64,000 nucleotides of DNA from Fodinibius halophilus (lineage in GTDB: Bacteria > Bacteroidota > Rhodothermia > Balneolales > Balneolaceae). Under the pieces are notes generated by a model that saw only the letters and a list, made by a program, of their open reading frames with translations, was not told the origin of the DNA and did not search any database. Made by a program: the position numbers and the translations under genes. The stretch spans positions 62,001-126,000 of the forward strand of contig NZ_JAALLS010000004.1 of assembly GCF_011059105.1 (NCBI RefSeq), given 5' to 3'. Of this stretch, positions 8,335 to 49,600 are shown one piece after another. How positions within the stretch are numbered: the stretch's first letter is position 1; each line of letters begins with the position of its first letter.

Positions 8335-9828
8335 ATGAAACGATCTCGTTCAACTTATGCACTTTGGGCAATAGCCGCCGTATTAGTAATCGGCTTTTAT
8401 TCGATTGATCTACAACCTAATCAAGCCTCTATCTTTTCGTTTCCGGATTTCCCGGGCAATGATAACGCCGAAAAAGTAAAAAATGAGTCCGCACCTTCAC
8501 TGCAAGAATTTAATGATGCTATTGTTGACGTCGCCGAAGAAGCAAAATCAACGGTAGTTACGGTCAGCGTTACCCAAACGGTACAAGCTCGCCCTAATCC
8601 CCTTAGCCGCTTTTTTGGGGATCCCCGAGAGCAGCAACCCAAACGCTACGAAAGAGAAGGACAAGGTTCCGGGGTTATTGTATCTCAAGATGGATATATA
8701 CTCACCAATAATCATGTAGTTGAAAAAGCAGATGAAGTAGAAGTACAACTATATAACGATAAAGTCTACAAAGCCAAGGTGGTGGGTACCGACCCCCGAA
8801 CTGATATTGCTGTTTTGAAGGTAGATGCTGAAAACCTTGATGTTATCAAGCTCGGCAACAGTGAAAAAGCCCGCGTTGGCGAGATGGTACTGGCAATTGG
8901 AAGTCCCCTAAGCAATGGCCTCGCCCACTCTGTTTCTATGGGTATAATTTCTGCCAAAGATCGTAGCATTGGGATCATTGAAAAAGGTGCCGGTTATGAG
9001 AACTTTATCCAAACGGATGCTGCTATTAACCCAGGGAACTCAGGGGGCGCACTCGTTAACATGAATGGAGAGTTAATTGGCGTTAACACCGCTATTGCTT
9101 CCCGCTCTGGTGGAAGTGATGGAATCGGTTTTGCGGTGCCGGTGGATATTGCAAAGCGCGTTATGAAATCAATTATCGAAAAAGGTAAAGTAGTTCGCGG
9201 CTACCTGGGTATTACTACCGGGGGCGAAGTTGACGACACCATGGCACGAGCTTTAGGACTAGACAAATCGTATGGAATAATTGTAGGTGCGGTAGAAAAA
9301 GACGGTCCTGCTGACAAAGCCGGCCTTAAAGAAGATGATATTATCCAGACCATTAATAGCAAACCTGTGCGAAACTGGAATTCTTTCCGCACCGCTATTG
9401 CCACCTCTTCGCCAGGCACAAAGGTCAAACTAGGTATTGTACGCAATGAGGAAAAAATGACTCTCACTGTAACGCTTGGTGAACTCCCGCAAGATTTAAT
9501 GGCTGATAACAATCAAGACCGACCTAATGTAAATCTAGAAAAGCAGTTAGGTTTTAGTGTGACTGACTTGACCCCTGAAATAGCGCAAGAACTAGGAGTT
9601 AGCAGTAACCAGGATGGCGTTGTCGTTACTCAAATTTCACGCCGTAGTGATGCTTATCAGCAAGGGCTAAGACGAGGGTTTATAATTACTGAGGTTAATA
9701 AAAAACCCGTAGAAAACCTCTCTGAATTTAATGAAGCGATGAACAGGCTTATGGAACAAAAGAAGGATATTGTCTTGCTCCGTGTTAAAACACAAAATGC
9801 CAGTCAACTTATCGCCTTCGAGTTATAA
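8335..9828 (+). CDS. degP: HtrA/DegP-family serine protease with two PDZ domains
   Basis: This envelope protease/chaperone degrades misfolded periplasmic proteins. Its 497 residues hold an N-terminal signal/anchor (6-27), a trypsin-like domain with triad H127 (NNHVV), D157 (TDIAVLKV) and S236 (GNSGGAL), PDZ1 at about 285-380 and PDZ2 at about 400-490. Length and domain order match DegP/MucD. Start is ATG 8335 with CGGAG seven bases upstream. It follows hsp20 as a separate transcript and ends at its own terminator. A second, decayed copy covering only residues about 260 onward is at 13201-13895, on the far side of the ABC/peptide cassette. Confidence 0.97.
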   Translation: MKRSRSTYALWAIAAVLVIGFYSIDLQPNQASIFSFPDFPGNDNAEKVKNESAPSLQEFNDAIVDVAEEAKSTVVTVSVTQTVQARPNPLSRFFGDPREQQPKRYEREGQGSGVIVSQDGYILTNNHVVEKADEVEVQLYNDKVYKAKVVGTDPRTDIAVLKVDAENLDVIKLGNSEKARVGEMVLAIGSPLSNGLAHSVSMGIISAKDRSIGIIEKGAGYENFIQTDAAINPGNSGGALVNMNGELIGVNTAIASRSGGSDGIGFAVPVDIAKRVMKSIIEKGKVVRGYLGITTGGEVDDTMARALGLDKSYGIIVGAVEKDGPADKAGLKEDDIIQTINSKPVRNWNSFRTAIATSSPGTKVKLGIVRNEEKMTLTVTLGELPQDLMADNNQDRPNVNLEKQLGFSVTDLTPEIAQELGVSSNQDGVVVTQISRRSDAYQQGLRRGFIITEVNKKPVENLSEFNEAMNRLMEQKKDIVLLRVKTQNASQLIAFEL

Positions 9829-9857
9829 GCTATCAACTAAAATTCTCACAATTTGAA

Positions 9858-9888
9858 GCCCTCTGGTTAATTTCAGAGGGCTTTTTTT
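9858..9888 (+). terminator. Rho-independent terminator of htrA
   Basis: GCCCTCTG (9858-9865) pairs with CAGAGGGC (9874-9881) around an 8-base loop, then seven T. Its 3' arm and T-tract are the first part of the 29-bp direct repeat found again at 13941-13969. Confidence 0.92.
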
Positions 9889-9904
9889 ATGACAAGCTGA
9901 CGAA
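9876..9904 (+). repeat. Direct repeat, left copy (terminator arm + ATGACAAGCTGACGAA)
   Basis: These 29 bases recur without mismatch at 13941-13969. They cover the 3' arm and T-tract of the htrA terminator and a further 16 non-coding bases ending GACAAGCTGACGAA. Sequence on both outer sides differs between the copies, so the identity starts and stops sharply, like a recombination or attachment core. Between the copies lie the ABC/propeller/peptide cassette and the htrA fragment. Confidence 0.85.
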
Positions 9905-10056
9905 ATTAATTATTTTTATCATGTACCTGATATTATATTGGAAAATAGCCGAAAAATGATAAAACTATTTGAAATAATGTTTTAGAGAAAAGAGCACATA
10001 TATATCATACAATAGTTAGTGACGAGAGTTTCTATCGATGTGCTAAATGAATAGTT

Positions 10057-10863
10057 TCAATCATGAAAATTTTTTTTGTTAATAATTCCTAAATCAACTA
10101 TTAGAGCAATTATACTCACAGAAAGGAAATTCAAAATTTTAAAACTTGATATTGTAAATTGCTGATAAATGATGACTTCCTTAATTTTTTGCAGCATTAC
10201 CGTCACTTTTGGAAAAAGATGATAATTTAAATCCAAAAATTTATACCAAACATTATTCTCAATCAAAGGATAAAGGAGTTTAACCCTAACTTCCAAAAAC
10301 ATAGGCAGAATTAGTAATATAGTTAGAGAAGAAATGATAGCAACTAAAGTACTATCTGCAAGTAAACCTACAAGCAAAATGAATGGAACTATCAATACGG
10401 CAACAATTATATTTGTAAAAAAGGCGTAAAAGTATACTAATGGTATAAAACTGAAATTGATTAAAAGTTGAATAAAAAAAGCTGACCAAAATAACGTTAT
10501 CAATAAAGCAAATATGCTAAACATACCTAGATATTGATTGAAGAAAATTTGAGCTCTACTTATAGGCTTAACACAAAAGAAATCCATAAATGGGGTACTG
10601 TAAAAAATATGTGAGTGGGATGATGTTATGAAGATACCCAATAATAAAACAATCGATATATATATCATGAAACTATCACCGTATCCAGTAACTGTCGATG
10701 GCCTACCCAAATATTTAACATCTAAAATTACTCTTTTAGAAAACTCAAAATTGTAGCTATACAATAGAAACCATCCTAAGAATAGTGATATGATTATACT
10801 TAGGTAGAGTAGTTTAGATTTAGATAATTTCCTTAAATAAATTCTTACTGGTGTTAGTCTCAT
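10057..10863 (-). CDS. ABC-2 type transporter permease
   Basis: This 268-residue integral membrane protein has about six hydrophobic segments (20-40, 68-85, 110-135, 145-170, 172-195, 240-260), matching the size of an ABC-2 exporter permease. It follows the ATPase gene with two bases between stop and start, so the two are almost certainly translated together and form one exporter. The operon continues from a propeller lipoprotein and a Cys-containing secreted peptide, so a role in exporting or giving immunity to that peptide is possible but inferred. The gene is visibly A+T-rich compared with htrA and dnaJ outside the cassette. It ends 152 bp from the htrA-side direct repeat. Confidence 0.82.
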   Translation of the reverse strand: MRLTPVRIYLRKLSKSKLLYLSIIISLFLGWFLLYSYNFEFSKRVILDVKYLGRPSTVTGYGDSFMIYISIVLLLGIFITSSHSHIFYSTPFMDFFCVKPISRAQIFFNQYLGMFSIFALLITLFWSAFFIQLLINFSFIPLVYFYAFFTNIIVAVLIVPFILLVGLLADSTLVAIISSLTILLILPMFLEVRVKLLYPLIENNVWYKFLDLNYHLFPKVTVMLQKIKEVIIYQQFTISSFKILNFLSVSIIALIVDLGIINKKNFHD

Positions 10864-10865
10864 TT

Positions 10866-11759
10866 TCAGTTTAAATATTTTATAACTTCTTTTTCTAGAT
10901 CAAATTGTTTTTTTTCGATTGAGATAATACTAATATTGTTTTGGTCTAGTATGCGCAATGCCTCATTGATACTCTCAGTGCTTACATTAAGATAGTGATA
11001 GGCTTCATTAGAACCCACCGTCAAAAACAGGTTGTTCTCGGGTATAGATTCATCGGACGCAATTGTGATTTGGTGTAAGACCTCTTTCTTTTTTAGATCA
11101 TTAATATCGTAAGTCTTTGAGATACTACCCTGATCTAAAATACCCACTTTATCGCAAATCATTTCCACTTCACCTAGTAAATGAGAATTAATTAGAATCG
11201 TTTTACCATTCTTTTTTGTATTCTTTAGAATTTTTCGGACTGCGTCTTTTGCCATTGGATCTAGGCCATCAGTAGGTTCGTCCAGAATTAATAAATCTGG
11301 ATCATTACAGAAAGCGTGTATCAGTAATAGTTTTTGTTTAGTACCTTTCGAGTATTTGGAAATCCTTTTGTCAACATAGCTTTCAAAGTTCAATAAATGT
11401 ATTAATTCTGAAACTTTCGTGTTGCTACTTAAAGAATCTATATTACCCATATCTTTTAAAAATTGATGCCCTTTCAGAAAGCCAAACGAATTAAACCTCT
11501 CCGGCAAATAACCAATTCTAGAATTTTTTACTGGATTTTTTGGGTTTTCCCCGAAGACTTTACAACTCCCTCCTTCAAATGATAGTAGCCCCAAAATAAT
11601 ACGAATAAAGGTAGTTTTACCAGCACCATTTCTTCCTAATAAGCCAAATGCTTCACCTGGTTTTATAGTCAGGTTGAGATTTTTTAAAACACTGTCAGTG
11701 CTGCTAAATAGTCTATTTTTATAAGATTTAGATATGTTCTTAGCTTTAATTATTTCCAT
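10866..11759 (-). CDS. ABC transporter ATP-binding protein
   Basis: This 297-residue nucleotide-binding subunit energises the adjacent permease. Start is set at ATG 11759 (MEIIKAKNIS), where beta-strand 1 of the ABC fold begins; this overlaps the propeller gene's end by 14 bases, suggesting translational coupling. Walker A is GRNGAGKT (42-49), the signature is a variant YSKGTKQ in place of LSGGQ, Walker B is LLILDEPTDGLD and the H-loop is NSHLLGE. The SKGTKQ signature is common in BcrA/NatA-type exporters that handle antibiotics, lantibiotics or ions. About 80 residues follow the ABC core, as in that class. Substrate is unknown. Confidence 0.93.
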   Translation of the reverse strand: MEIIKAKNISKSYKNRLFSSTDSVLKNLNLTIKPGEAFGLLGRNGAGKTTFIRIILGLLSFEGGSCKVFGENPKNPVKNSRIGYLPERFNSFGFLKGHQFLKDMGNIDSLSSNTKVSELIHLLNFESYVDKRISKYSKGTKQKLLLIHAFCNDPDLLILDEPTDGLDPMAKDAVRKILKNTKKNGKTILINSHLLGEVEMICDKVGILDQGSISKTYDINDLKKKEVLHQITIASDESIPENNLFLTVGSNEAYHYLNVSTESINEALRILDQNNISIISIEKKQFDLEKEVIKYLN

Positions 11760-12717
11760 ATCTTTTATTTTTTGAAATTTCCCAAATTTCAGATTCAAAA
11801 CCACCAGTTATGTAAAAGTTAGAGGAGCTACCGGATTCAATGATCCCAGAAGAAAGTTCTACATCTACTGAATAAAGATATGAATATGACAAATCAAACA
11901 AATAAATGTAGCTTTTAATATCAGAATAAATACCACCTTTAAGAAAAAGTATTTCTTCGTTAGTTGGATCAAATTCTACATTTTGGATAAACGTATTTTG
12001 TGGAGTGCCAATTGTTGATAGTTTAATTTCATTAGTTAGAAAAGGTAAATTAAAGGACTTCTTTAACCTACCAGCAGAGTCATAAATTTGAACTAGATTT
12101 TTATAGCGGTACGCAAATATAAGGTTATTATTGCCATCAACTGTTAGTGTTCCCGCATTTAATAAAGCCGTATCATCCGGATTAACTTGAAAAAACCTGT
12201 TCAATAATTCTTTGTTTAAGCTATAGGTTTCAAAAATAACGCCATTTGGTCTATAAAGCTGAACCACTAAATTTCTGTTATTATCAAATGAAACATCAAA
12301 AGGCCGCCCCTCCTTAACTAATATTTCTTTACATTCAGAAAAGTCCTCTCTAATTAAAATAATTTTATTGGCATCTAAATCAGGTATTGCCATCCAACCG
12401 TATCTCAAATCACCAAATAAAGGTTTGTCTAACTCACAAGGTCCTTTGCCCTTTTTGCCCCACTTCGACAAGAAATCTCCCTTCTTATTAAATTTTAATA
12501 CTTCTCGATTGGATTTATCTATTACAAAAATAAATTTATCGTTCGTTAATAGACCAGAACTTTTGAAGTATGAAGTTGAATCATTAGGACCTCTGATTAA
12601 AGTACTGTCAACAGATAAAATTTCTTCTGATGGAGCAGACCTATTTTTAGCACAACTATTGCACAAGAATACAAATAAAGCTGAAAAACCTAATATGTAT
12701 CTAAATTTTTTTTTCAT
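11746..12717 (-). CDS. 6-bladed beta-propeller lipoprotein
   Basis: This 323-residue protein has a lipoprotein signal (lipid Cys at 22 in FLCNSCAKN), so it should be tethered outside the inner membrane. The body shows repeated propeller strands: 'FVIDKSNREVLKFNKKGDFLSKWGKKGKGPCE', 'AIPDLDANKIIL', 'LTVDGNNNLIFAYRY' and 'VEFDPTNEEILFL'. This is the pattern of the 6-bladed propeller proteins (DUF4221/DUF5128-like) that in Bacteroidota sit beside short NVEALA-type peptides. Here too a Cys-rich secreted peptide is directly upstream, separated by a terminator. It overlaps the ABC ATPase start. A second propeller with a peptide neighbour is at 15818-16906. Its function in any organism is unclear to me. 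Confidence 0.8.
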   Translation of the reverse strand: MKKKFRYILGFSALFVFLCNSCAKNRSAPSEEILSVDSTLIRGPNDSTSYFKSSGLLTNDKFIFVIDKSNREVLKFNKKGDFLSKWGKKGKGPCELDKPLFGDLRYGWMAIPDLDANKIILIREDFSECKEILVKEGRPFDVSFDNNRNLVVQLYRPNGVIFETYSLNKELLNRFFQVNPDDTALLNAGTLTVDGNNNLIFAYRYKNLVQIYDSAGRLKKSFNLPFLTNEIKLSTIGTPQNTFIQNVEFDPTNEEILFLKGGIYSDIKSYIYLFDLSYSYLYSVDVELSSGIIESGSSSNFYITGGFESEIWEISKNKRYGNN

Positions 12718-12741
12718 GTTATTAAGGTATTCAACAATCTT

Positions 12742-12778
12742 TAAAAATAAAAAAGCTACAGCTTTAGAAGCCTGCAGC
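12742..12778 (-). terminator. Terminator/attenuator between peptide gene and propeller
   Basis: Read on the minus strand, GCTGCAG (12778-12772) pairs with CTGTAGC (12761-12755), with one G-U pair, and is followed by TTTTTTATTTTT. It lies after the peptide stop and before the propeller ATG, so most transcripts would end after the peptide, with read-through into propeller-ABC. Confidence 0.7.
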
Positions 12779-12805
12779 CTACAAATACAATTATGGCATT
12801 AAACT

Positions 12806-13123
12806 TTAACCAGTAATTTCATTCCAGTAATAAGCGATATCACAACCAGCACGGCACCCACTTCTCTGCGCACCGTCAAAGAATGTATCTCCAGTATAAT
12901 CCTCATTACATCCAGTGATACATTTATCTCTGGCCTTATCATTTTCTGATTCTTCCTTTTTTGCAAAAGCTGAAGATACGAGTGATATCGCAACACTGTA
13001 GAATTCTCCCTCATTTGCATCAGTTTCTGTTGTTTGATACTGTATATTGAAAGTTAAAGTTACAAATCCTAGTAATACAACTGGTATAACTATGATCTTA
13101 AGTAGTCCTTGTAAATTATTCAT
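12806..13123 (-). CDS. Small secreted peptide precursor with four cysteines (NVEALA-like)
   Basis: This 105-residue protein has an N-terminal hydrophobic helix (8-25) and a middle segment FYSVAISLVSSAFAKKEE. The C-terminal core holds CITGC and GCRAGC, four Cys that could form two disulfides. The layout (TM/leader, an 'AL..' or 'AFA' processing-like segment, then a Cys-rich tail) resembles NVEALA-family peptides of Bacteroidota. The similarity is by pattern only, not by alignment. It is the first gene of the minus-strand cassette, followed by a terminator, a propeller lipoprotein and an ABC exporter. Start is ATG 13123; the upstream region carries a TA-dinucleotide run and then the htrA fragment. 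It could be a signal, toxin or bacteriocin-like peptide; unproven. Confidence 0.65.
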   Translation of the reverse strand: MNNLQGLLKIIVIPVVLLGFVTLTFNIQYQTTETDANEGEFYSVAISLVSSAFAKKEESENDKARDKCITGCNEDYTGDTFFDGAQRSGCRAGCDIAYYWNEITG

Positions 13124-13200
13124 AACAATAATTTAATTAATGTTGGTTAAAGCGCTTGTTATTAACATATATATATATATTCTTTCCCAAATATTAATTC

Positions 13201-13895
13201 GGCAGTGACGGCATCGGCTTTGCCGTACCGGTTGATATTGCCAAACGCGTAATGAAATCAATTATCAAAAATGGGCGTGTAGTACGTGCTTATCTTGATA
13301 TTGCAGGACAGGACATTACCCCTACCCTGGCAAAAGCATTAGAGTTGGATAGCAACAGGGGCATTGTCGTAAACCAAGTAAATGAAGATACCCCCGCAAA
13401 AGAAGCCGGACTTCAAGAAGGCGATATTATCCAAAAGCTAAATGGGAAAGAAATATTAAATTATGGAAACTTTCATACAAACATTGCTACTTCGAGTCCC
13501 GGTGATAAGATACAGTTACATATTTTACGGGACGGTGAAACAAAAAAGATATCTGTTACTCTAGGGGAACTGCCCAATGAACTGACTATGGATGAACAGA
13601 CTACTACTGATAAAACAATGGAAAAACAGCTGGGTTTTCGTGTGCAAGATCTAGCACCTGAAATTGCACAACAGCTTAACTTGGACCAAGACCAAGAAGG
13701 GGTGGTTGTAAGTCAAATTTCACAACGAAGCGAAGCCTACCGGCAGGGCCTGCGTCAAGGACATGTTATTACCAGTGTTGGCAATCAATAGACTTTAATG
13801 ATGCCATCAATAATCTGTTAGAACAAGAAAAAGATGTAGGTTTACTTCGGGTTCTGACCGATGAAAATAACTGTTTAGTTGCCTTTGAGTTATGA
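13201..13895 (+). pseudogene. Decayed 3' fragment of a second htrA/degP gene
   Basis: The translation from GSDGIGFAVPVDIAKRVM onward matches residues about 260-497 of the intact HtrA at 8335-9828: the end of the protease domain, PDZ1 and PDZ2. All triad residues (H, D, S) are absent because the 5' half is missing, and homology begins abruptly at 13201. Near 13790 several codons are lost and the frame breaks: ...ITSVGNQ then TAG, after which DFNDAINNLLEQEKDV...LVAFEL continues in another frame to a TGA at 13893-13895. The DNA is similar but clearly diverged from the intact copy, so this is not a recent tandem duplicate. It is followed by its own terminator and the direct repeat. Confidence 0.92.
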
Positions 13896-13926
13896 GGTAG
13901 ATGATCACTATAGCTAGATACAGGAG

Positions 13927-13953
13927 GCTCTCCCACACAGGAGGGCTTTTTTT
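13927..13953 (+). terminator. Terminator after the htrA fragment
   Basis: GCTCTCC (13927-13933) pairs with GGAGGGC (13940-13946), one G-U pair, followed by seven T. The 5' arm differs from that of the intact htrA terminator, whereas the 3' arm onward is identical to it. Confidence 0.82.
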
Positions 13954-13969
13954 ATGACAAGCTGACGAA
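13941..13969 (+). repeat. Direct repeat, right copy
   Basis: Exact second copy of the 29 bases at 9876-9904. The two copies are in the same orientation, 4,065 bp apart. Recombination between them would leave intact htrA followed directly by the dnaJ promoter region. Confidence 0.85.
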
Positions 13970-14009
13970 CTACTGCTATTAACTTGACAATTCGTTAGCT
14001 TTTGGATTC

Positions 14010-14025
14010 TGGCACTTTATTTGCT
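14010..14025 (+). promoter_or_regulatory. Sigma54-type (-24/-12) promoter sequence upstream of the dnaJ-like gene
   Basis: TGGCACTTTATTTGCT matches the RpoN consensus TGGCACG-N4-TTGCW at every position but one, with GG (14011-14012) and GC (14023-14024) correctly spaced. Predicted start is about 14036, a 40-base leader to ATG 14076. It is the second such site in this chaperone region. Confidence 0.62.
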
Positions 14026-14075
14026 CTCTTATATAGTGAAATCTCGAAAAAGCTCTATGATGCCACAATAACATT

Positions 14076-15119
14076 ATGGAATACAAAAACTATTACGACA
14101 TACTGGGTGTTAGCAAAAATGCTTCTCAGGATGAGATAAAGAAGGCATACCGTAAGAAAGCGGCTAAATACCATCCGGATAAAAACCCCGATGACCCCTC
14201 TGCTGAGGACAAATTTAAAGAGCTTGGTGAGGCATACGAAGTATTGCAAGACCCTGAGAAACGCAAGTTGTATGACAAAGTCGGTAAAGACTGGAAAAAA
14301 TATCAGCGTGCCGGCGGTACTGCTGATGGCTTTGATTGGTCTGATTATGCTCGTCAAAGTCGCCGGAGCCGTGGCTACAGTAATGGGGGACAACAGTATC
14401 AAACCGGATTCGACATCAATGACCTCTTTGGCGGAGGCGGTGGTGGACGAAGCGGAGCCCAACAGGGACAAGGGCGCAGTTTTTCCAGCTTTTTCGAAAC
14501 TATTTTTGGCGGGGCAGGCGGTGCCAGCCCCTTTGGACAGCAAGCCCAAAGCCAACGCTCTCGCCGCTACCAAAGCAATGCCAGACAACAGGGCCGGCAA
14601 GCTACAGCCAAGAAGAATTTAAACGCCGAAGTTACCATCCCACTGAAACAAGCCTACAACGGAACTTCTCGAACAATCCGTGTGGGCGGCGAAAAAATGA
14701 AAGTTAAAATACCTGCCGGTATAGAAGATGGTCAGCGCCTCAAATTAAAAGGGAAAGGATCTACCAAAGCCCGCGGTGGTGCTCGCGGCGATCTTCTTTT
14801 GACCGTTCGTATTGATATGCCGGAAGGTTATGAACGCAAAGGGAATAACCTGTACTACGATCATCCCCTTGATCTTTATACGGCTGTGCTCGGAGGTGAT
14901 ACTGTGGTTGATACTATTGCAGGTAAAGCAAAACTAACAATCCCTGCAGGCACTTCAAGTGGTAAACTGTTTAGACTCAATGGCATGGGCATGCCCGAAT
15001 TCCGTAACTCTTCAAACAAAGGTGACTTGTTAGCCCGCATGCAGGTGCAAGTACCTGAGAACTTATCAAAAGAAGAAGAGAAACTGTTTAATAAGTTGGC
15101 AAAAGAAAGAGATAGTTAA
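14076..15119 (+). CDS. cbpA: CbpA-like DnaJ (J-domain co-chaperone without zinc finger)
   Basis: This 347-residue type II J-protein stimulates DnaK ATPase and delivers clients. The J-domain (1-70) has HPD at 33-35. A Gly/Phe-rich linker follows (about 95-170), then two C-terminal beta domains (about 180-340) with [20 protein letters not shown] and [17 protein letters not shown]. No CxxCxGxG zinc repeats exist, separating it from classical DnaJ. It has its own sigma54-type promoter sequence. Its surroundings are odd: a decayed htrA fragment on the left and a decayed DUF2784-like fragment on the right, whose stop codon overlaps the dnaJ stop by two bases. No chaperone modulator gene (cbpM) is visible. 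Confidence 0.93.
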
Positions 15120-15420
15120 GCAACAATTTCTTTCTTTTTAAAGTCCTTGAAATTCAGATAGAGTGAAATCAGCAGTACTAAAAAGAAACAACTGGCTGTT
15201 GTAAAATCTACTATCATAGCGCTTAGTTCTATCCCCGTTAATTGCTGAATCAAAAACTGAATATAGGAATTGGGCATATCAGTCTCCCCCAGTTTCTGAC
15301 GTACCTGCCAGTGCCAGTGTGTAGAGTGACAATAACCAAAGCCATGCTATAACCAGAGAAAGGTCATAGCCGGCAGCCTAATAAGCCCCCTTTCGGACCT
15401 TTCCCGTTAACCAATCAATG
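15116..15420 (-). pseudogene. Decayed copy of the DUF2784-like membrane protein gene
   Basis: Read on the minus strand, the frame GFGYCHSTHWHWQVRQKLG followed by ETDMPNSYIQFLIQQL aligns with GFGYCPCTHWHWQVRQKLG and YTDMPNSYIKFLIDEL of the intact gene at 17003-17368, and runs to a TAA at 15116-15118. Upstream of this, TAG stops and a short deletion break the frame (FLWL then stop), and only faint N-terminal similarity remains to about 15420. It is therefore a broken relic in the same orientation as the intact gene. Cassette B lies between the two. Confidence 0.85.
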
Positions 15421-15524
15421 GAATACTTAATGGTTTATAATTTGTACCTATTTAGTTTTTTCTTTAGAGTGAAAGTAAGCTTAATTATTTTGGGCTTATA
15501 ATAAATAACTAACCATCAAACATT

Positions 15525-15757
15525 ATGCTTAAAAAACTATTCTATCTTTGAGTATTCTTTTCGGAATATTAGTCTTGGGATCTCCTATTCTCAATTCTTA
15601 TGCAAATATTAACGCTAAGGATACAACTGAAAGTGTAAAATGTAACAGCTCTGGCTCTTGGTGGGTTAGCTGTGACTATGACCCGGGATCAAATACTGTT
15701 ACGATAAATTGTGACTACGGCGGAGAAGACCCCTGTGGAAAAGCGGAAGTAGAATAA
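15525..15757 (+). CDS. Small secreted Cys peptide, frame broken in a run of six A
   Basis: The open frame from 15548 has only a TTG start and encodes a hydrophobic segment ending SPILNSYA and a core with four Cys (VKCNSS, VSCDY, INCDYGG, DPCGK). The likely true start is ATG 15525, but in that frame the reading meets TGA at 15549-15551. If the A-run at 15531-15536 had seven A instead of six, the product would begin MLKKTILSLSILFGILVLGS, a textbook signal peptide, and read straight into the Cys core (about 77 residues). So this is either a sequencing indel, slippage-dependent expression, or a fresh mutation. A perfect 15-bp hairpin and then a propeller gene follow. Confidence 0.6.
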
Positions 15758-15767
15758 TGTAATAATA

Positions 15768-15802
15768 ATAGGAGTGCTTAATAAATAATTAAGCACTCCT
15801 AT
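15768..15802. other. Perfect 15-bp hairpin between peptide and propeller genes
   Basis: ATAGGAGTGCTTAAT (15768-15782) and ATTAAGCACTCCTAT (15788-15802) are exact complements around a 5-base loop. No T-tract follows on the plus strand, so it may act as an mRNA-stabilising or partial-termination element separating the peptide from the propeller, as the terminator does in cassette A. Confidence 0.75.
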
Positions 15803-15817
15803 TCCAAAAAAAATCTT

Positions 15818-16906
15818 ATGAACATTATTGAAAATTTAAGACCAAACCCTCTGTGTATTGCGTTCTTTCTTGCTCTTTTTTTAGTCACAAGCAACAATAA
15901 CGCTTTTAGTCAGTATGCCAAACAGAATCCATCAAAGGCTTTCAAGGATTTATTTGTCAAAAACAAAGAAATATTTATATCAATAGATGAAAATACGCTC
16001 TTAGACAGACCTGTTTCTATACTTCAAACAAAAAACGACCAGCTAATTTGGGGTGAAAAAGAAGGAATAAAAGTTTTTGACCAATCGGGAGCTCTTATAA
16101 AGAAAGTTGAACTATCAGGTCGTGGTCCCGGTGAATTAATTAGGGCTTCGCAATACAATCTAACTGAATCTAATATTACTATTCTAGATGCCTCACAACT
16201 AAAGGTTATAGTTCTAAACAATGATTGTGAATTCCAACACGAATTCTTGGTTGCAAAAAATAGAACCAAGTTACATGCTAAATCAAGCAAGGGTAACTAT
16301 TACACTTTAAATGAATTGATGTTAAACTCAGAGACCCCTGCACTTTCTAAATATGATAGTACAGGTACAAAAATTGCAGAATGGGGAATTGTTCCATTAA
16401 CTGCCAAAACACAAAGAGCAAATCAAAATGGAGGTGGTATTACGTCTGATGGTCGCGGTAACATTTACTATTCATACCAAGGTGATTTTCGGATCTGGAA
16501 GTTAAACACATCTGAAAATTCTATCAGTATATTTAAAAACAAGCCTTCATATTTCAAACCAATATCACAAAAAGAATTACAAACAACTCAAAGAGCAAGA
16601 AAACTTTTTTATCTGGGCTATAAGGGAACCAGACTTACGGGGCTTTTCTTTCTTAAACCGAACATTATACTACAACAATTTGAAACTGGAAACCCTTTTA
16701 ATAAGCCTAAAGAAGAATTAACCTACTATTTAGAAATTTGGAATACTAGTGGTGAAAAATTAGCCTCCAAAATCGAAATACCTTATCCCATCGCTTGGGT
16801 TGATCAGAACTCAATTACACTACCTACGATGTATCCCTCAAAAATTTTACAACAAAAAGGGGAAATTAAGGCATTTAAAACTTTCACCATACAAATTTCA
16901 AAGTAG
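15818..16906 (+). CDS. Secreted 6-bladed beta-propeller protein
   Basis: This 362-residue protein has a cleavable signal peptide (hydrophobic 12-25, probable cut at AFS-Q near 31). The pattern 'IKVFDQSGALIKKVELSGRGPGEL' followed by 'ITILDASQLKVIVLN' and 'ITSDGRGNIYYSYQGDFRIWKLN' is that of the 6-bladed propeller family seen next to NVEALA peptides; the GRGPGE motif matches GKGPCE in the cassette A propeller. There is no lipid Cys here. It lies 60 bp after the Cys peptide, with a hairpin between, and 96 bp before the convergent DUF2784-like gene. No ABC genes accompany this second module. Function unknown. Confidence 0.78.
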   Translation: MNIIENLRPNPLCIAFFLALFLVTSNNNAFSQYAKQNPSKAFKDLFVKNKEIFISIDENTLLDRPVSILQTKNDQLIWGEKEGIKVFDQSGALIKKVELSGRGPGELIRASQYNLTESNITILDASQLKVIVLNNDCEFQHEFLVAKNRTKLHAKSSKGNYYTLNELMLNSETPALSKYDSTGTKIAEWGIVPLTAKTQRANQNGGGITSDGRGNIYYSYQGDFRIWKLNTSENSISIFKNKPSYFKPISQKELQTTQRARKLFYLGYKGTRLTGLFFLKPNIILQQFETGNPFNKPKEELTYYLEIWNTSGEKLASKIEIPYPIAWVDQNSITLPTMYPSKILQQKGEIKAFKTFTIQISK

Positions 16907-17002
16907 AAAATATCCATATCGCCGCATCCGAACTAAGTTCCCCCAAAAACTTATCGGATATGTAAAGAGAGCCTTTAAGTGAACTTAGAGTGTCTACCTA
17001 AA

Positions 17003-17368
17003 TCAGCCTTCACCAACTTTCCAGTTTACATAAACTGAAACTACTAGAACAGCCACAAAAAGTATCCCGGTCCACATATCAACAACATTTGCTGATACCT
17101 TAATGCCTAGAAGCTCATCTATCAAAAATTTAATGTATGAATTAGGCATATCAGTATACCCCAGTTTTTGGCGCACCTGCCAGTGCCAATGGGTACACGG
17201 GCAGTACCCAAAACCATACCATATGCCAAGGCCAAACCAAGAAAAAGCTGTCAACAAGAGCGTTGCCAAATTCCATCGCCGTGTTTTCTTCCATATCCAC
17301 CCGAAGAGATTAAATAGGATGAACAGGGTATGGAAAATGATAAAACCGACATCCAAAAGAGTATACAT
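17003..17368 (-). CDS. DUF2784-like small membrane protein
   Basis: This 121-residue protein has about three to four TM helices (5-25, 33-50, 95-115) and the family-type motif GFGYCPCTHWHWQVRQKLG, reminiscent of the 'YCPLT.WE...R...G' signature of DUF2784. Function is unknown. Start is ATG 17368. A broken copy lies at 15116-15420 in the same direction, so cassette B appears to sit within a former duplication. It diverges from the S1/P1 nuclease gene across 87 bp. Confidence 0.75.
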   Translation of the reverse strand: MYTLLDVGFIIFHTLFILFNLFGWIWKKTRRWNLATLLLTAFSWFGLGIWYGFGYCPCTHWHWQVRQKLGYTDMPNSYIKFLIDELLGIKVSANVVDMWTGILFVAVLVVSVYVNWKVGEG

Positions 17369-18235: not shown

Positions 18236-18364
18236 TATCTCTTTGTATTGTAACCTTGCCTGCCAACGGCTGTAATGCTGTTACCAACTCAACGTTCTCA
18301 AAATGAAGTCTCCCTCCATGCTTGCAGGGAGGGAACAAGGGTGGGTCAGCCCAGCACGAGCGGA

Positions 18365-18397
18365 ACGACACGGCAATCTCCCTGAATAAACTGGTTG
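18365..18397 (+). repeat. 33-bp dispersed repeat, copy 1
   Basis: ACGACACGGCAATCTCCCTG followed by AATAAACTGGTTG; one base differs from 18708-18740 (ACGACACGG against ACGACGCGG). Flanks differ between the copies. Confidence 0.75.
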
Positions 18398-18707
18398 ATG
18401 TATAAGGGATTCTCTTTAGGAGATCCTGAAATAAATTCAGGATGACAAGAGTTTTTATAAAAAGGAAAAGAATAGATATTCTCGGACATCCTCCGCCACT
18501 ACGTTAAAACTTCGAGGCGCATAGCTGCACCTTCTTCGGTTTCCTTCAACAGCCCCATCACTAGTAGTGCCACAAGGAGGAATTTTTCTTGCCCTTTAGA
18601 TCCTACGCGAACCTCTTAAGGGAGATCCCTCGGCTACGCTTGGGATGGCATTGCTTTTGTCTTTTAATCAACGGCTGTCATTGCGAGGAGTACCGTGGGT
18701 TCGCGGG

Positions 18708-18740
18708 ACGACGCGGCAATCTCCCTGAATAAACTGGTTG
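18708..18740 (+). repeat. 33-bp dispersed repeat, copy 2
   Basis: One mismatch to 18365-18397. Preceded by GTCATTGCGAGGAGTACC, giving the ATTGCGAGGA...GCGGCAATCTC half-palindromic layout of common extragenic repeats. Confidence 0.75.
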
Positions 18741-18795
18741 GGGTGTGAAGACTGCCCTTTAACTTCATTCGTTGCGCTCAAGATGACTCTACCCT

Positions 18796-43668: not shown

Positions 43669-46600
43669 ATGTACAACAATAGTCAGTATCATTTTATCTT
43701 TTCTACGCGTAATAAGCTCATTTCTTGTATCCAGTACTTAATAAAACCTCTGGTATTTTTGGTGGTCATACTTTGCGGGATATCATCAAACCTATATGCC
43801 CAAACAGATTATACCTCATCCTTATCCGGTGGCGACAATCCTCTAAGCAGTATACCCGAAACTGCAAGTGGAGTTATTACTGGTGACTTTGATAATGATG
43901 GAGATGTCGATGTGTTAGCATTTGATGACAATGGCAATTTCGATTCATACAACTTTTACGCCAATGATGGCTCAGGGACATATTCTGTAGTTACCGGTTC
44001 TTCTAACCCCTTTGATGGAATAGCCGCAAGTGATATTTTTTTCGTAGGCGATCATACCTATGTAGCAGATTTTGATAATGATGGCGACCAGGATATTTGG
44101 GATTATCGAGGCGAGAATGCTAATGATGATCAAAATATCTATCTGGAAAACACCGGCGGCAGCTATACCTCTTCCAAATCGGGAGGAAGCAACCCGCTTT
44201 CAGCCATTCCTGATGCTGACGGTGGCGTTATTGTCGGCGACTTTGACAATGATGGAGATGTCGATGTGTTAGCATTTGATGATGATTCGTATTCCTCATT
44301 TAGTTTCTACGCCAATTATGGCTCAGGATCATTCTCCAAGGTTACCGGATCCTCTAACCCCTTTGATGGAATAGCCGCAAGTGATATTTTTTTTACAGCA
44401 GACAATACTTTTGTAGCAGATTTTGATGGCGATGGTGACCAAGATATTTGGGATTATCGAGGTCAAACCAGTGGGGATTCACAAAATATTTATCTGGAAA
44501 ATACCGGCGGCAGTTATACCTCTTCGAAATCCGGAGGAAGCAATCCTCTTTCAGGAATACCTGATGTTGCAACCGGCGTTATTGTTGGCGACTTCGATGG
44601 TGATGGTGATATTGATGTATTGGCGTATGATGATGATACCTATACCTCATTTAGTTTCTACGCCAATAATGGCTCAGGATCATTCTCCAAGGTCACCGGA
44701 TCCTCTAACCCCTTTAATGGAATAGCTGACGGGAACATTTTTTATGCAGCAAGTAATACCCTGGCAGCTGATTTTGATAACGACGGGGACCAGGATATTT
44801 GGGATTATAAAGGAGATACTTCCAATATCTATTTAAAAAAACAAGGTAGTCCCAACACTGCTCCTACTGATATCACCCTTAGCTCCAATTCCATTAACCA
44901 AAGCGATGGCACAAACGCTACCGTAGGCAACTTAACAACCACCGATGCCGATGGCGGCGACACCCATAGCTACAGCTTGGTTTCAGGGACAGGAGATACA
45001 GACAATGGCAGCTTTAACATCAGCGGCAGTGATTTACGAGCCAATGACGCCTCAAACCTGCCATCCGGCAGTTACAGCGTTCGCATCCAAACGGATGATG
45101 GCATTGATACTTATCAAAAAGCCTTTACCATCACCGTGAATGATGATTTGGCGCCAAGTTATGAAAACAGCACGCCTTCGGTTTCGGGCACAACCGTATC
45201 CCAAACCACCCTTACCGTACGGTTAAATGAAATAGGCACTGCTTATTATGTGGCCGTACCCGACGGGGATGGGGCACCCAGTGCATCCCAAGTAAAAAAT
45301 GGCCAAAACAGTAGTGGAAGTGCAGCTTTAGCCAGTGGCAGTATTAATATCAGCTCCGCCTCCCAGGATTTTACCGATGACATTACCGGTTTGAACTCCA
45401 ATACCGCTTACGATATTTATGTGGTGGCCCAGGATGATGAAGGTACGCCCAACCTGCAGGGCAGTGCCACCAAAGTGGATGTGACCACACTTAATGCAGC
45501 TCCCACTTTCACAAATCTGGCTGATGCCGTGGAAACCACCGATGAAGATACCGGAGTGGAAATCCTATTTTCGAGCATTATTGGCCAGTCGGATGCAAAC
45601 GACAGCGATGGAACGGTAGATGCTTTTGTGGTACAATCGATAAGCAGTGGAACGCTTACCATCAACGGTTCGGCTTATGCTGCAGGAACCAACGATGAGA
45701 TAACACCCGCCAAAAGCGGCAACTGGACGCCCGATGCCGATGCCAATGGGACCCTCAACGCCTTTAGTATCACCGCTAAAGATGACGCAGGAGCAGAAAG
45801 TTCGACTGCCGTACAAGCCCAAATAGATGTGACCGCGGTAAATGACAGTCCGGTAATTACCAGCAACGGCGGCGGAGCAACGGCATCCCTAAATATTGCA
45901 GAAAATACCACCGCTGCTACCACCGTAACGGCCAGCGATGCGGATGGGGATAACTTGGCCTTTGCCCTCTCAGGTGGAGCCGATTCGGCACTCTTTACGA
46001 TTGACCCCAACTCCGGTGCCCTTACATTCAGCTTAACCCCGGATTACGAGTCCCCCAATGACAATAATAACGACAATGTGTATGACGTTACCGTAAGCGC
46101 ATCCGATGGTAATGATACAGACAGCCAGGATATTTCGATAACCGTAACCGACGAAAATGAAGCGCCCACATTTACGGATGGAGCCACTACCACCCTTTCG
46201 GTCAATGAAGATGACGGGGCCACAGCTATTAACAACCTGCTGGAAATTACCGATGATGACAACGGGAACACCCTTAGCTGGAGCGTGAGCTCTGCCCCGG
46301 CTAAAGGATCGCTCAGCGGGTTCCCAGCCAACGAGACCTCCAGCAACGGTTCGGTTACCCCAAGCGGGCTCACTTACACTCCCAATGCCGATGCTACCGG
46401 CAGCGACAGTTTCGATATTCAAATTTCCGACGGAACTACAAGCAACACCATTACTGTCAATGTGGATATCAATGCTCGTCCAACAGTAACGATTACCTCT
46501 GCGGAATCAGATCCCACCAATGCCGCATCCTTCGATGTAACAGCCACATTTAATGAATCTGTTACCGGCTTTGACGCTTCCGATATTACCGTTGGCAACG

Positions 46601-49600
46601 GCTCAGTAAATAGCGTATCCGGTTCAGGAACAACCTATACTATAACTGTCAGCCCAACGAATGACGGTTCCGTAACTGTCGACATTCCTGCAGGCGGAGC
46701 CACCGATGGCGCCGGCGCCGGTAATGAAGCTGCATCCCAGTTTAGTATCACCTATGACGGAACCCCACCGGCTGCTCCCGCTTCATTAGATCTTGCCTCA
46801 GGCAGCGATACCGGGGATTCTAATACCGATAATAATACCAACAATACCACATCCACGATCAATGGCACGGCGCCGGCCAACACCACCGTCGCCATTACAT
46901 CTGACCAAGATGGGCAGCTGGGGACAGCAACTGCCGACGGAACGGGCAACTGGAGCTTCACGCCCGGTACTGCGCTTTCGGAAGCGAACCATAATATTAC
47001 GGCCACTGCAACAGATGCAGCGGGCAATACGAGCAGTTCTTCGTCTGCACTTTCAGTCATTATCGACACCAGCGCTCCCAACGCCCCTGCTACCCTTGAC
47101 ATGCTGGCCGGCAGTGATACCGGCGATTCGGATTCCGACAATATTACCAGTAATGATACACCTGCCATCAGCGGTACGGCTGAAGCAAACAGTATTATTG
47201 AAATAAACAGTGATAAAGATGGCAGCCTCGGCACCACTACAGCCAACAGTTCCGGTGACTGGAGCTTTACGCCGGGTAGTGCTATTACGGAAGCTACCCA
47301 TGCTATAACAGCCCAGGCTACTGACGCCGCGGGCAACACGGGCAGCAGCTCTTCGAGTCTGTCCATCACGGTTGATAAAACCAGTCCCACTACGCCGGCC
47401 GCCCCAGACCTGCTGGCCGATAGCGATACCGGGGACTCCGATACGGATAACCAAACAAATGATACCACTCCTGCTTTTAGCGGCAGCACTGAGAGTAATG
47501 CCTTTATTTCATTAAAAAGTGATCAGGATGGTGTTATCGGTTCTGCCATTGCCAACGGTTCAGGTGACTGGGAGATCACTGCATCTACCTTAACCGAGAC
47601 CACCCATAACATTACCGTCATCGTAACCGATCAGGCCGGAAACAGTACCACCTCTGCCCCGCTAAGCCTGGACATTGATGTTACCGCTCCTTCTTCTCCG
47701 GCAATACCTGACCTCGCGTCCGGAAGCGACAGCGGCACTTCTTCAACAGATGACCTGACCAACAATACCACACCCACGATTAATGGCACGGCGCCGGCCA
47801 ACACCACCGTCGCCATTACATCTGACCAAGATGGACAGCTGGGGACAGCAACTGCCAACGGAACGGGCAACTGGAGCTTCTCACCCAGCACAGCACTTTC
47901 GGAAGCGACCCATAATATTACGGCCACGGCATCAGATGCAGCGGGCAACACTTCCTCGTCATCCGGCAATTTCGCTATTACCATTGACACCTCAGCGCCA
48001 CAACTTACGGCAAGCACGCCCTCCGATGGGGCCACCGATGCCAACTACCAAACCGACCTTATACTTACTTTTGATGAAGACCTTGTTGCCGGTTCTGCGG
48101 GCAATACCAGTATCGATATATATCTGAGCGACGGTACCCTGCACGAATCCATTGATGTGAGCCAGGCCACCATTACGGCTAATGAAATTACAGCCGATAT
48201 TAATACCGACCTTACGCCAACCAAAAGCTACTATGTGCTGGTTGGATCAGATGCCCTGATTGATAAAGCCGGAAATGTATACCCAGGTATCAGTAGTTCC
48301 GGTACTCTTACATTTACTGTCGATAATACGCCCCCTACTGCTAGTAACGATACTAAAAGCACAGATGAAGAAAATAGTGTGACGGTAGATGTGCTCAGTA
48401 ACGACAGCGATAGTGAAGGCAGTGTCGATCCCTCTACCGTAACGGTCACTTCTGCCCCTGCAAACGGCAGTACCAGCGTCAATGCTACCTCCGGGGAAAT
48501 TACCTATACTCCCAATACTGACTTTAGCGGCAGCGACTCCTTTGAGTATACCGTGCAGGATCTCCAGGGTGGTCTTTCGCAACCCGCTACTGTGACCATC
48601 ACTGTTAACGGCGTAAACGATGCGCCCGTAATTACATCACCATCCTCGGTATCCCCCGATGAAGATACCGGATTTGCATTTAGCGGATCTAATACAATTT
48701 CACTTACCGATATTGATGCCGGCACCGGTACCCTTTTGGTTAGCCTTACGGTCAACAACGGTACCCTAATGCTGGGGACCACCTCACATATTACTTTTAC
48801 CAGCGGCACCAACGGCAACAGCAGTTGGGAAATATCGGGATCACTCAGTGACCTTAATACGGCCCTTGCTAGTCTCAGTTACACAGGCAACCAAAATTTC
48901 AACGGTTCTGATGAACTGAACATGCTCGTTAATGATCAAGGAAATACAGGAGCAGATCCCGGCCTCAGCGGCGATGCATCCAGTGAAGAAGATAAAGCAA
49001 AGATATCACTGAATGTACAACCCGTGAATGATGATCCGATCTTTAGTTCCAGTCAAACAGCCAACATCGATGAAAATAGCACCGGTGTAATACTGGATGT
49101 GAATGCCACAGACGGTGATGGCGGAGCCGATGATGCCAATATCAGTTATGCTATAAGCGGTATTGACAGCGCGCCATTCAGCATTGATAAAAGTTCGGGT
49201 ATCCTCTCGCTCAACAACCCTCAGAATTTCGAAGCGCCGGGCGATGCCAATCAAGATAATAACTATGAATTTACCGTTGATGCCGATGATGGTGTGAATA
49301 CGGTATCACAAACCATTACCGTTTCAATAAATGATATACGTCCCGCCATGGCCGACCAATCGGTAGGAAGTGTGGACGAAAACGCAAGTAACGGCACCGT
49401 TGTGGGAACTATTGTTACCACTGATGATACACCCACTCAATTTGTTATTAGTAGTGGAAATACAGATGACGCGTTCCAAATAGATAACAGCGGGCAAGTT
49501 TTAGTTGCCAACCAGAGTGTAATCGATTATGAAACAAAAAATCAATATGACTTTACGGTTGAAACGAATGACAAACCATCAGGAAATGGTATTTCAGCAG

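Follow-up and report, generated by a model that had tools for sequence, protein, structure and literature searches.

Two peptide/propeller cassettes between doubled homologous sequences beside a dnaJ-like gene of Fodinibius halophilus: a possible record of single-crossover integration

A dnaJ-like gene of Fodinibius halophilus is flanked on each side by a cassette that is absent from the corresponding loci of its relatives, and by a second, incomplete copy of the conserved gene that lies beyond that cassette. The locus resides in a window of 64,000 nucleotides (positions 62001-126000 of contig C34 in the 4.19-Mb draft genome, here labelled G000), where the gene order is htrA, cassette A, htrA 3' fragment, dnaJ, DUF2784 relic, cassette B and intact DUF2784 gene. 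A homologous stretch is present on both sides of the added DNA in each case, with a 29-nucleotide block doubled at cassette A and the core of the DUF2784 gene doubled at cassette B. We favour, with modest confidence, the interpretation that foreign cassettes were gained twice and independently, in the htrA-dnaJ and the dnaJ-DUF2784 intervals, each time through a single homologous crossover between a circular DNA and the chromosome. Interpreted in this manner, the locus would document, in nature, the entry of foreign genes between conserved ones in the absence of any mobile element, and the donor lineage, the crossover site and the resulting mosaic could all be read from it.

Mosaic sequences at the borders of the two cassettes

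All of these parts, with their positions and order, were found as an earlier note on this DNA had described them. We compared the locus with 15 dnaJ loci of relatives, 11 from other members of the genus and four from the wider family (stretches of 10.9-19.3 kb). A single htrA gene resides directly upstream of dnaJ in 13 of the 15, the exceptions being G009, where a phage-like insert separates the two genes, and G018, whose contig carries no htrA. A single DUF2784 gene likewise lies downstream of dnaJ in 13 loci, and none was found in G018 or G022. A second htrA, a second DUF2784 gene or any propeller gene occurs at none of the 15 relatives' dnaJ loci. The complete order with intact inner copies, which according to the earlier note would mark the copies as ordinary ancestral paralogues, is likewise present in none of them. 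The content of guanine and cytosine (GC) is 30% in cassette A and 34% in cassette B, compared with 43% for the window.

The htrA fragment and the intact htrA gene share 58% amino acid identity over residues 260-454 (E 3e-66), and the two DUF2784 copies share 64% over residues 51-117 (E 1e-23). Thus, in both pairs the inner copy is homologous to the outer gene beyond chance and is diverged from it, as had been proposed. The protein encoded by the htrA fragment is 89% identical to the HtrA protein of the relative G006 and 52-59% identical to the other 11 copies from the genus, including that of its own genome. Phylogenetic trees agree with this pattern, placing the fragment with G006 (support 100/97), and both the intact htrA (100/100) and dnaJ (100/99) with the nearest relative, G010. 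In a wider search of genome contigs, the only relatives of the htrA fragment were two distant Psychromonas loci.

The same change of affinity can be followed at the DNA level. In windows of 100 alignment columns from 13200 to approximately 13967, identity is 0.80-0.94 to G006 and 0.49-0.76 to G010, whereas the next window has an identity of 0.89 to G010 and 0.63 to G006. On a finer scale the match to G010 begins at 13941, and positions 13941-14080 are 91% identical to that genome. The switch therefore falls inside 13941-13969, which is an exact repeat of 9876-9904. This 29-nucleotide block is alike in both parents because it includes the T-run of the htrA terminator together with TGACAAGCTGACGA, which the alignment identifies as part of a dyad upstream of dnaJ; the core motif of the block is found in ten of the 11 relatives from the genus, G011 being the exception, and also in G021. 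Trees and alignments together show that the htrA fragment is of foreign origin, that dnaJ and the intact htrA are native, and that the transition between the two lies within the block.

On the other side of dnaJ, the mosaic is distributed between two copies of one gene. The C-terminal half of the DUF2784 relic is open in frame, with protein homology that extends to approximately position 15346, and DNA alignment is weak from there to approximately 15440. This half is 65% identical in nucleotides to G010, the best of 13 relatives, with G004 at 63%; G010 itself is 42-55% identical to the other 12 here. The intact gene has kept the capacity for a full-length protein, and its segments differ in affinity. 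Its core (17121-17223) is 87% identical to G010, again the best of 13 (next 80%), and its N-terminal part is 76% identical to G010 (next G009, 74%). However, its C-terminal 118 nucleotides (17003-17120) are only 43-56% identical to the copies of the 13 relatives and 45% identical to the relic. The intact DUF2784 gene therefore looks like a chimera of native and foreign sequence, although a foreign origin of the 118-nucleotide C-terminus is less firmly indicated. If this reciprocal mosaic is accepted, the native-like C-terminus remained adjacent to dnaJ and the native-like N-terminus adjacent to the following gene, the two being separated by cassette B and a C-terminus of unplaced affinity.

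The earlier note had also emphasized a symmetry in which intact copies lie outside and decayed copies inside. This order holds, but the origins of the copies do not follow it: at htrA the inner copy is foreign and the outer one native, whereas at DUF2784 the inner copy is native-like and the outer one chimera-like.

Table 1. Features of the dnaJ locus, in window coordinates
Feature	Position	Strand	Evidence
Intact htrA (Do-family serine protease), native	8335..9828	+	TIGR02037 458 bits, cut-off 416; tree with G010 100/100
29-nucleotide block, first copy (T-run of htrA terminator plus TGACAAGCTGACGA)	9876..9904	+	Exact repeat of 13941-13969
Cassette A, 30% GC	9905..13199		Absent from 15 relatives' dnaJ loci; GC
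Cassette A probable membrane protein (permease by position and by eye)	10057..10863	-	Pfam/NCBIfam: none
Cassette A ABC transporter ATPase	10866..11804	-	PF00005 94 bits
Cassette A propeller protein	11746..12717	-	PF17170 DUF5128 23.9 bits, cut-off 22.9
Cassette A peptide gene, 105 amino acids, Cys-containing	12806..13123	-	Families: none over cut-off
htrA 3' fragment, foreign, 5'-truncated, one frameshift near 13790	13200..13895	+	89% amino acid identity to G006; tree 100/97 with G006
29-nucleotide block, second copy; proposed crossover site of insertion A	13941..13969	+	Left G006-like, right G010-like
Sigma-54-type -24/-12 sequence TGGCAC-N5-TTGC, upstream of dnaJ	14010..14024	+	Exact in window
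dnaJ-like gene, native	14076..15119	+	PF00226, PF01556; no zinc-finger domain match; tree with G010 100/99
DUF2784 relic, native-like C-terminal half, N-terminus lost	15116..15440	-	C-terminal half 65% nucleotide identity to G010; frames
Cassette B, 34% GC, ends approximate	15441..16960		Absent from 15 relatives' dnaJ loci; GC
Cassette B peptide gene, Cys-containing, start uncertain	15548..15757	+	Families: none over cut-off
Cassette B propeller protein	15818..16906	+	PF17170 35.1 bits, cut-off 22.9
Intact DUF2784 gene	17003..17368	-	PF10861 79.3 bits; 17003-17120 (C-terminus) unlike all relatives, 17121-17368 native-like

Repeated gene ends at other propeller sites

We also examined other sites for partial copies of non-propeller genes in the vicinity of a more complete one, using 15 stretches of G000 and 12 stretches of other genomes that were chosen by hand from DUF5128 matches. 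A fragment with a propeller gene between the copies was found in three of the 15 stretches of G000 (the present locus, a site at tyrA, and a match of 19 residues in stretch L116) and in two of the 12 stretches of other genomes. The latter are, in G007, a 5' piece of a gene for an RND-like pump and, in G011, a piece of a C39-ABC gene that lies inside a propeller array. Among the controls, such an arrangement was found in none of 23 stretches of G000 (two of which have a propeller gene at their edge) and in two of 13 relatives' dnaJ loci. A match in L137 was dropped because the paralogue of its parent gene is cut by the end of the stretch, and fragments without a propeller gene between the copies occur in L121, L125 and L147. 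We considered a general rule for propeller loci and rejected it, since the enrichment over control stretches is not significant (Fisher p 0.054-0.23 depending on the set; 0.14 for G000 without the window).

The clearest other case of repeated gene ends is the tyrA site (L118 6519-12553, from contig C12 of G000). Three copies of the tyrA 3' end are located to the left of, between and to the right of propeller cassettes; the sequences that flank the site share 85 bp of this tyrA 3' end when they are placed on G010. Each of the three copies resembles G006 more closely than G010, and therefore native and donor sequence cannot be separated at this site.

The argS site (L121 11200-13562, from contig C23) carries a peptide-propeller-ABC-permease cassette that is followed by a G006-like end of the next gene, serA and the intact gene. 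The gene end is decayed and matches G006 at 91 of 123 nucleotides and G010 at 77 of 123; serA lies in two frames and is 88-89% like that of G002. At the same site, G006 itself has a propeller gene and a relative of one of the small genes. At a third site, gyrA, 2.4 kb have simply taken the place of 0.6 kb, and nothing is duplicated.

Single-crossover integration and competing explanations

The proposed series of events would begin with a native htrA-dnaJ-DUF2784 locus. In each event, DNA from a related bacterium that carried a cassette and part of the adjoining conserved gene would circularise and integrate by one crossover. A single crossover between a circle and the chromosome predicts that homologous sequence flanks the foreign DNA on either side, with native sequence leading into the left copy and donor sequence out of it, and with donor sequence leading into, and native sequence out of, the right copy. 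This reciprocal mosaic is clear in the right copy at cassette A and in the two ends at cassette B; the donor part of the left copies is too short or too decayed to be judged.

For insertion A, we place the crossover in the 29-nucleotide block that lies between htrA and dnaJ. A donor with the order htrA-block-cassette A is implied, which circularisation would permute to cassette A-htrA'-block. After integration the chromosome would read native htrA, block, cassette A, 3' end of the donor htrA, block and native dnaJ. For insertion B, a circle with cassette B and the end of a DUF2784 gene would have crossed over in the conserved core of the resident gene. The product would be a native C-terminal half beside dnaJ (the relic), cassette B, and a chimeric gene with a donor C-terminus and a native N-terminus. 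The donors of the two insertions were apparently different. Besides the trees, the switch within the doubled block and the complementary DUF2784 copies, this reading is supported by the lack of the arrangement in relatives, the low GC content of both cassettes, the comparable repeats of the tyrA end and the 5' gene fragment of G007. Since htrA, DUF2784 and the region upstream of dnaJ all remain whole, both insertions could persist, whatever benefit the cassettes themselves might provide.

This would be a known outcome of recombination, and the locus is probably a well-preserved natural instance that occurs twice at one gene. When non-replicating plasmids were integrated in Escherichia coli, polymerase chain reaction indicated partial target duplication in 56 of 60 clones, and duplications of 109-950 bp were confirmed in the 14 clones that were sequenced; the authors inferred partial loss of a homology arm, re-circularisation and one crossover (PMC3240628). 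As described there, this conjugation-based system resembles the present locus in that foreign DNA comes to lie between a whole and a truncated homologous copy, with duplication rather than deletion. It differs in that the locus examined here is natural and involves a diverged donor and two events at one gene.

A second parallel is offered by the minimal mobile elements of Neisseria, in which different whole-gene cassettes reside between the same two conserved genes in different genomes without mobility genes (PMC3082526). A comparable pattern is seen here at argS and in the dnaJ-DUF2784 interval, which holds nothing, cassette B or, in four of 13 relatives, an insert of approximately 1.6 kb that encodes a protein of 465-482 residues. 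These four inserts had suggested a propeller hot spot shared among relatives, but this idea was rejected, as their product is an outer-membrane-like protein (judged by eye, without a family scan) and not a propeller. Unlike the locus described here, the Neisseria cassettes are exchanged via conserved flanks, and broken copies of flanking genes fall outside the definition given in that source; moreover, the present comparison is between species rather than strains.

Several observations weigh against single-crossover integration as we have outlined it. No circular form was seen, and the circle is something that we infer. The doubled block is only 29 nucleotides long, and insertion A taken alone could reflect a joint made where the block ends, with nothing duplicated. 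At DUF2784, the C-terminal stretches are short (118 nucleotides), fast divergence could account for the unusual C-terminus of the intact gene, and the outer part of the relic, beyond approximately 15346, is too decayed to display donor sequence. The lead of G010 in the relic is small (65% versus 63% for G004), and the N-terminus of the intact gene is also only narrowly G010-like (76% versus 74% for G009). Among the other sites, the copies at tyrA are uniformly G006-like, gyrA shows a simple replacement, the enrichment over controls is not significant, and the foreign gene end beside the cassette at argS fits entry of linear DNA better.

Entry of linear transforming DNA is an alternative that we consider unlikely. 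Such DNA could have been joined through homology at one end (the block or the DUF2784 core) and none at the other, a process termed homology-facilitated illegitimate recombination, or through the joining of sister chromatids with a short duplication. The argS site has the order that this route would produce, with a cassette, a truncated G006-like gene end and then native-side sequence. ComEC-family genes are present in all 12 genus genomes, but this says little about the route of entry because E. coli has one too. In pneumococcus, interchromatid integration after transformation generates tandem duplications (PMC3784515). These Streptococcus pneumoniae merodiploids are similar to our locus in that homologous recombination of incoming DNA leads to tandem copies, but the reported duplications place approximately 100-900 kb between the repeats, as opposed to a few kilobases plus foreign DNA. 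Homology-facilitated illegitimate recombination generally, though not invariably, deletes target DNA (PMC3240628), whereas at the present locus comparison with G010 shows no loss of target DNA at cassette A as far as the block, and target DNA is doubled at cassette B. It is also conceivable, but improbable in our estimation, that a tandem duplication had already produced the doubled arrangement in a donor, from which an ordinary double crossover brought it in. This would give the same final order with no need for a circle, yet no such donor exists among the 15 loci compared, and both crossovers would have to fall within short stretches at cassette A, with different donors at A and B.

We regard it as very improbable that the cassettes represent transposons or elements with site-specific integration, for which the gene ends would be target repeats. 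Repeated gene ends do lie beside cassettes at htrA, DUF2784 and tyrA, and a phage-like element that bears a recombinase (by eye) did enter the start of dnaJ in G009. However, no recombinase match was obtained with Pfam or NCBIfam among the listed genes of cassettes A and B, no pair of inverted repeats among the 24 listed connects the two ends of either cassette, and the repeated stretches vary in length and position and include the 5' end of a gene in G007. Site-specific integration at the 29-nucleotide block, which the G009 insert had suggested, was rejected because that element and its repeat are located at the start of dnaJ rather than at the block. The repeat, ATGGAATATAAAAAC, was noticed by eye in the flanks of the insert, and an automated repeat search gave a different 13-mer.

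Two further origins had been put forward in the earlier note. The symmetric order would be explained if one foreign allelic block, comprising both cassettes and everything between them including dnaJ, had been recombined into the chromosome. This is scarcely tenable, because dnaJ and its upstream region are native-like (100/99 in the tree; 91% identity to G010) while the adjoining htrA fragment is G006-like. The other suggestion, that two related elements inserted at the edges of dnaJ, anticipated the two separate insertions favoured here, but the donors were apparently different and the joints involve sequence of the neighbouring genes.

If single-crossover integration is correct for this locus, a tentative and rather doubtful extension is that bacteriocin-like peptide/propeller cassettes spread throughout the genus without a recombinase. 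Pieces that had been excised or degraded would form circles, retain a scrap of the conserved gene next to them and re-enter the same gene of another species by one crossover. The scraps would thus act as address labels, and the accumulation of cassettes at htrA, DUF2784, tyrA, argS and gyrA would leave broken gene ends behind. Should the pattern hold in complete genomes, such ends could trace the origin and joining of accessory cassettes, a step that usually leaves little record. The association between these scars and the spread of peptide/propeller cassettes merits a larger survey. Our literature searches covering propellers with leader peptides or bacteriocins, recombination in Balneolaceae, and partial duplication by single crossover returned no account of this type of locus.

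Cassette contents and further features

Both cassettes encode a small Cys-containing peptide and a DUF5128-type propeller protein. Cassette A has two additional genes, one for an ABC ATPase and one for a probable membrane protein; its genes lie on the strand opposite to those of cassette B. The claim that both encode the same unusual module thus holds for the kind of genes present, but the two propellers are only 28% identical over 81 residues (E 2e-4) and the additional genes are confined to cassette A. Neither peptide has a match above the cut-off in Pfam or NCBIfam. No relatives of the cassette A membrane protein were found in the wider genome contig search or in 37 other genomes, and none of the cassette A peptide were found in those 37 genomes. 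Near the start of the cassette B peptide gene (15525-15560), the frame opened by the ATG at 15525 does not match that of the peptide after a run of six A residues, and the start may have been lost or frameshifted.

The distribution of DUF5128 matches within the genus is highly unequal, with 27 in G000, 26 in G005, 14 each in G007 and G009, 13 in G011, ten in G006, one in G010 and none in G001, G002, G003, G004 and G008 (five of the 11 genus relatives). This uneven spread, exemplified by the difference between G000 and its nearest relative, is the more interesting lead. Arrays in which propeller genes alternate with short peptides were observed in L114, L115 and L117 (contigs C45, C41 and C27 of G000) and in G005 (C1:1191532-1238147). 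The array peptides have a common N-terminal leader, and two of them score 19.8 and 18.8 bits against the bacteriocin-like family NF047798, below its cut-off of 23.5. An array in G011 additionally encodes an ABC protein of the C39 export type and another protein that is LanC-like. In this mixture of propellers and short peptides with C39-type ABC and LanC-like proteins, the genus arrays resemble bacteriocin-like peptide clusters with C39 export, whereas the window peptides match no family above the cut-off and adjoin no C39 exporter. A fair guess is that the peptide/propeller cassettes may constitute an antagonistic or signalling peptide system. A literature search for NVEALA found no paper. 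One propeller-carrying contig of G005 (L146, C9, 7356 bases) has ends that overlap by 1484 bp (99.9%) and includes a transposase-like gene (IS110-like by eye); it is either circular or bounded by two copies of an insertion sequence.

In the region upstream of dnaJ, a sigma-54-type promoter sequence preceded by a dyad is conserved in relatives. The sequence TGGCAC-N5-TTGC is exact in nine of their 15 upstream regions and has one mismatch in four more, a total of 13, and a sigma-54 gene is present in all 12 genus genomes. In G009, the phage-like element (approximately 8.7 kb; G009:C5 ~292080-300810, L113/L035) separates dnaJ from this promoter sequence, which lies on the far side of the insert. 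Regulation of the dnaJ-like gene by sigma-54 would be worth attention. Elsewhere in the window, direct DNA repeats of 80-86% identity occupy 43868-44808 and 46789-47951, and short repeats at 18360-18761, which appear REP-like (repetitive extragenic palindromic) by eye, are also found in L122 of the same genome.

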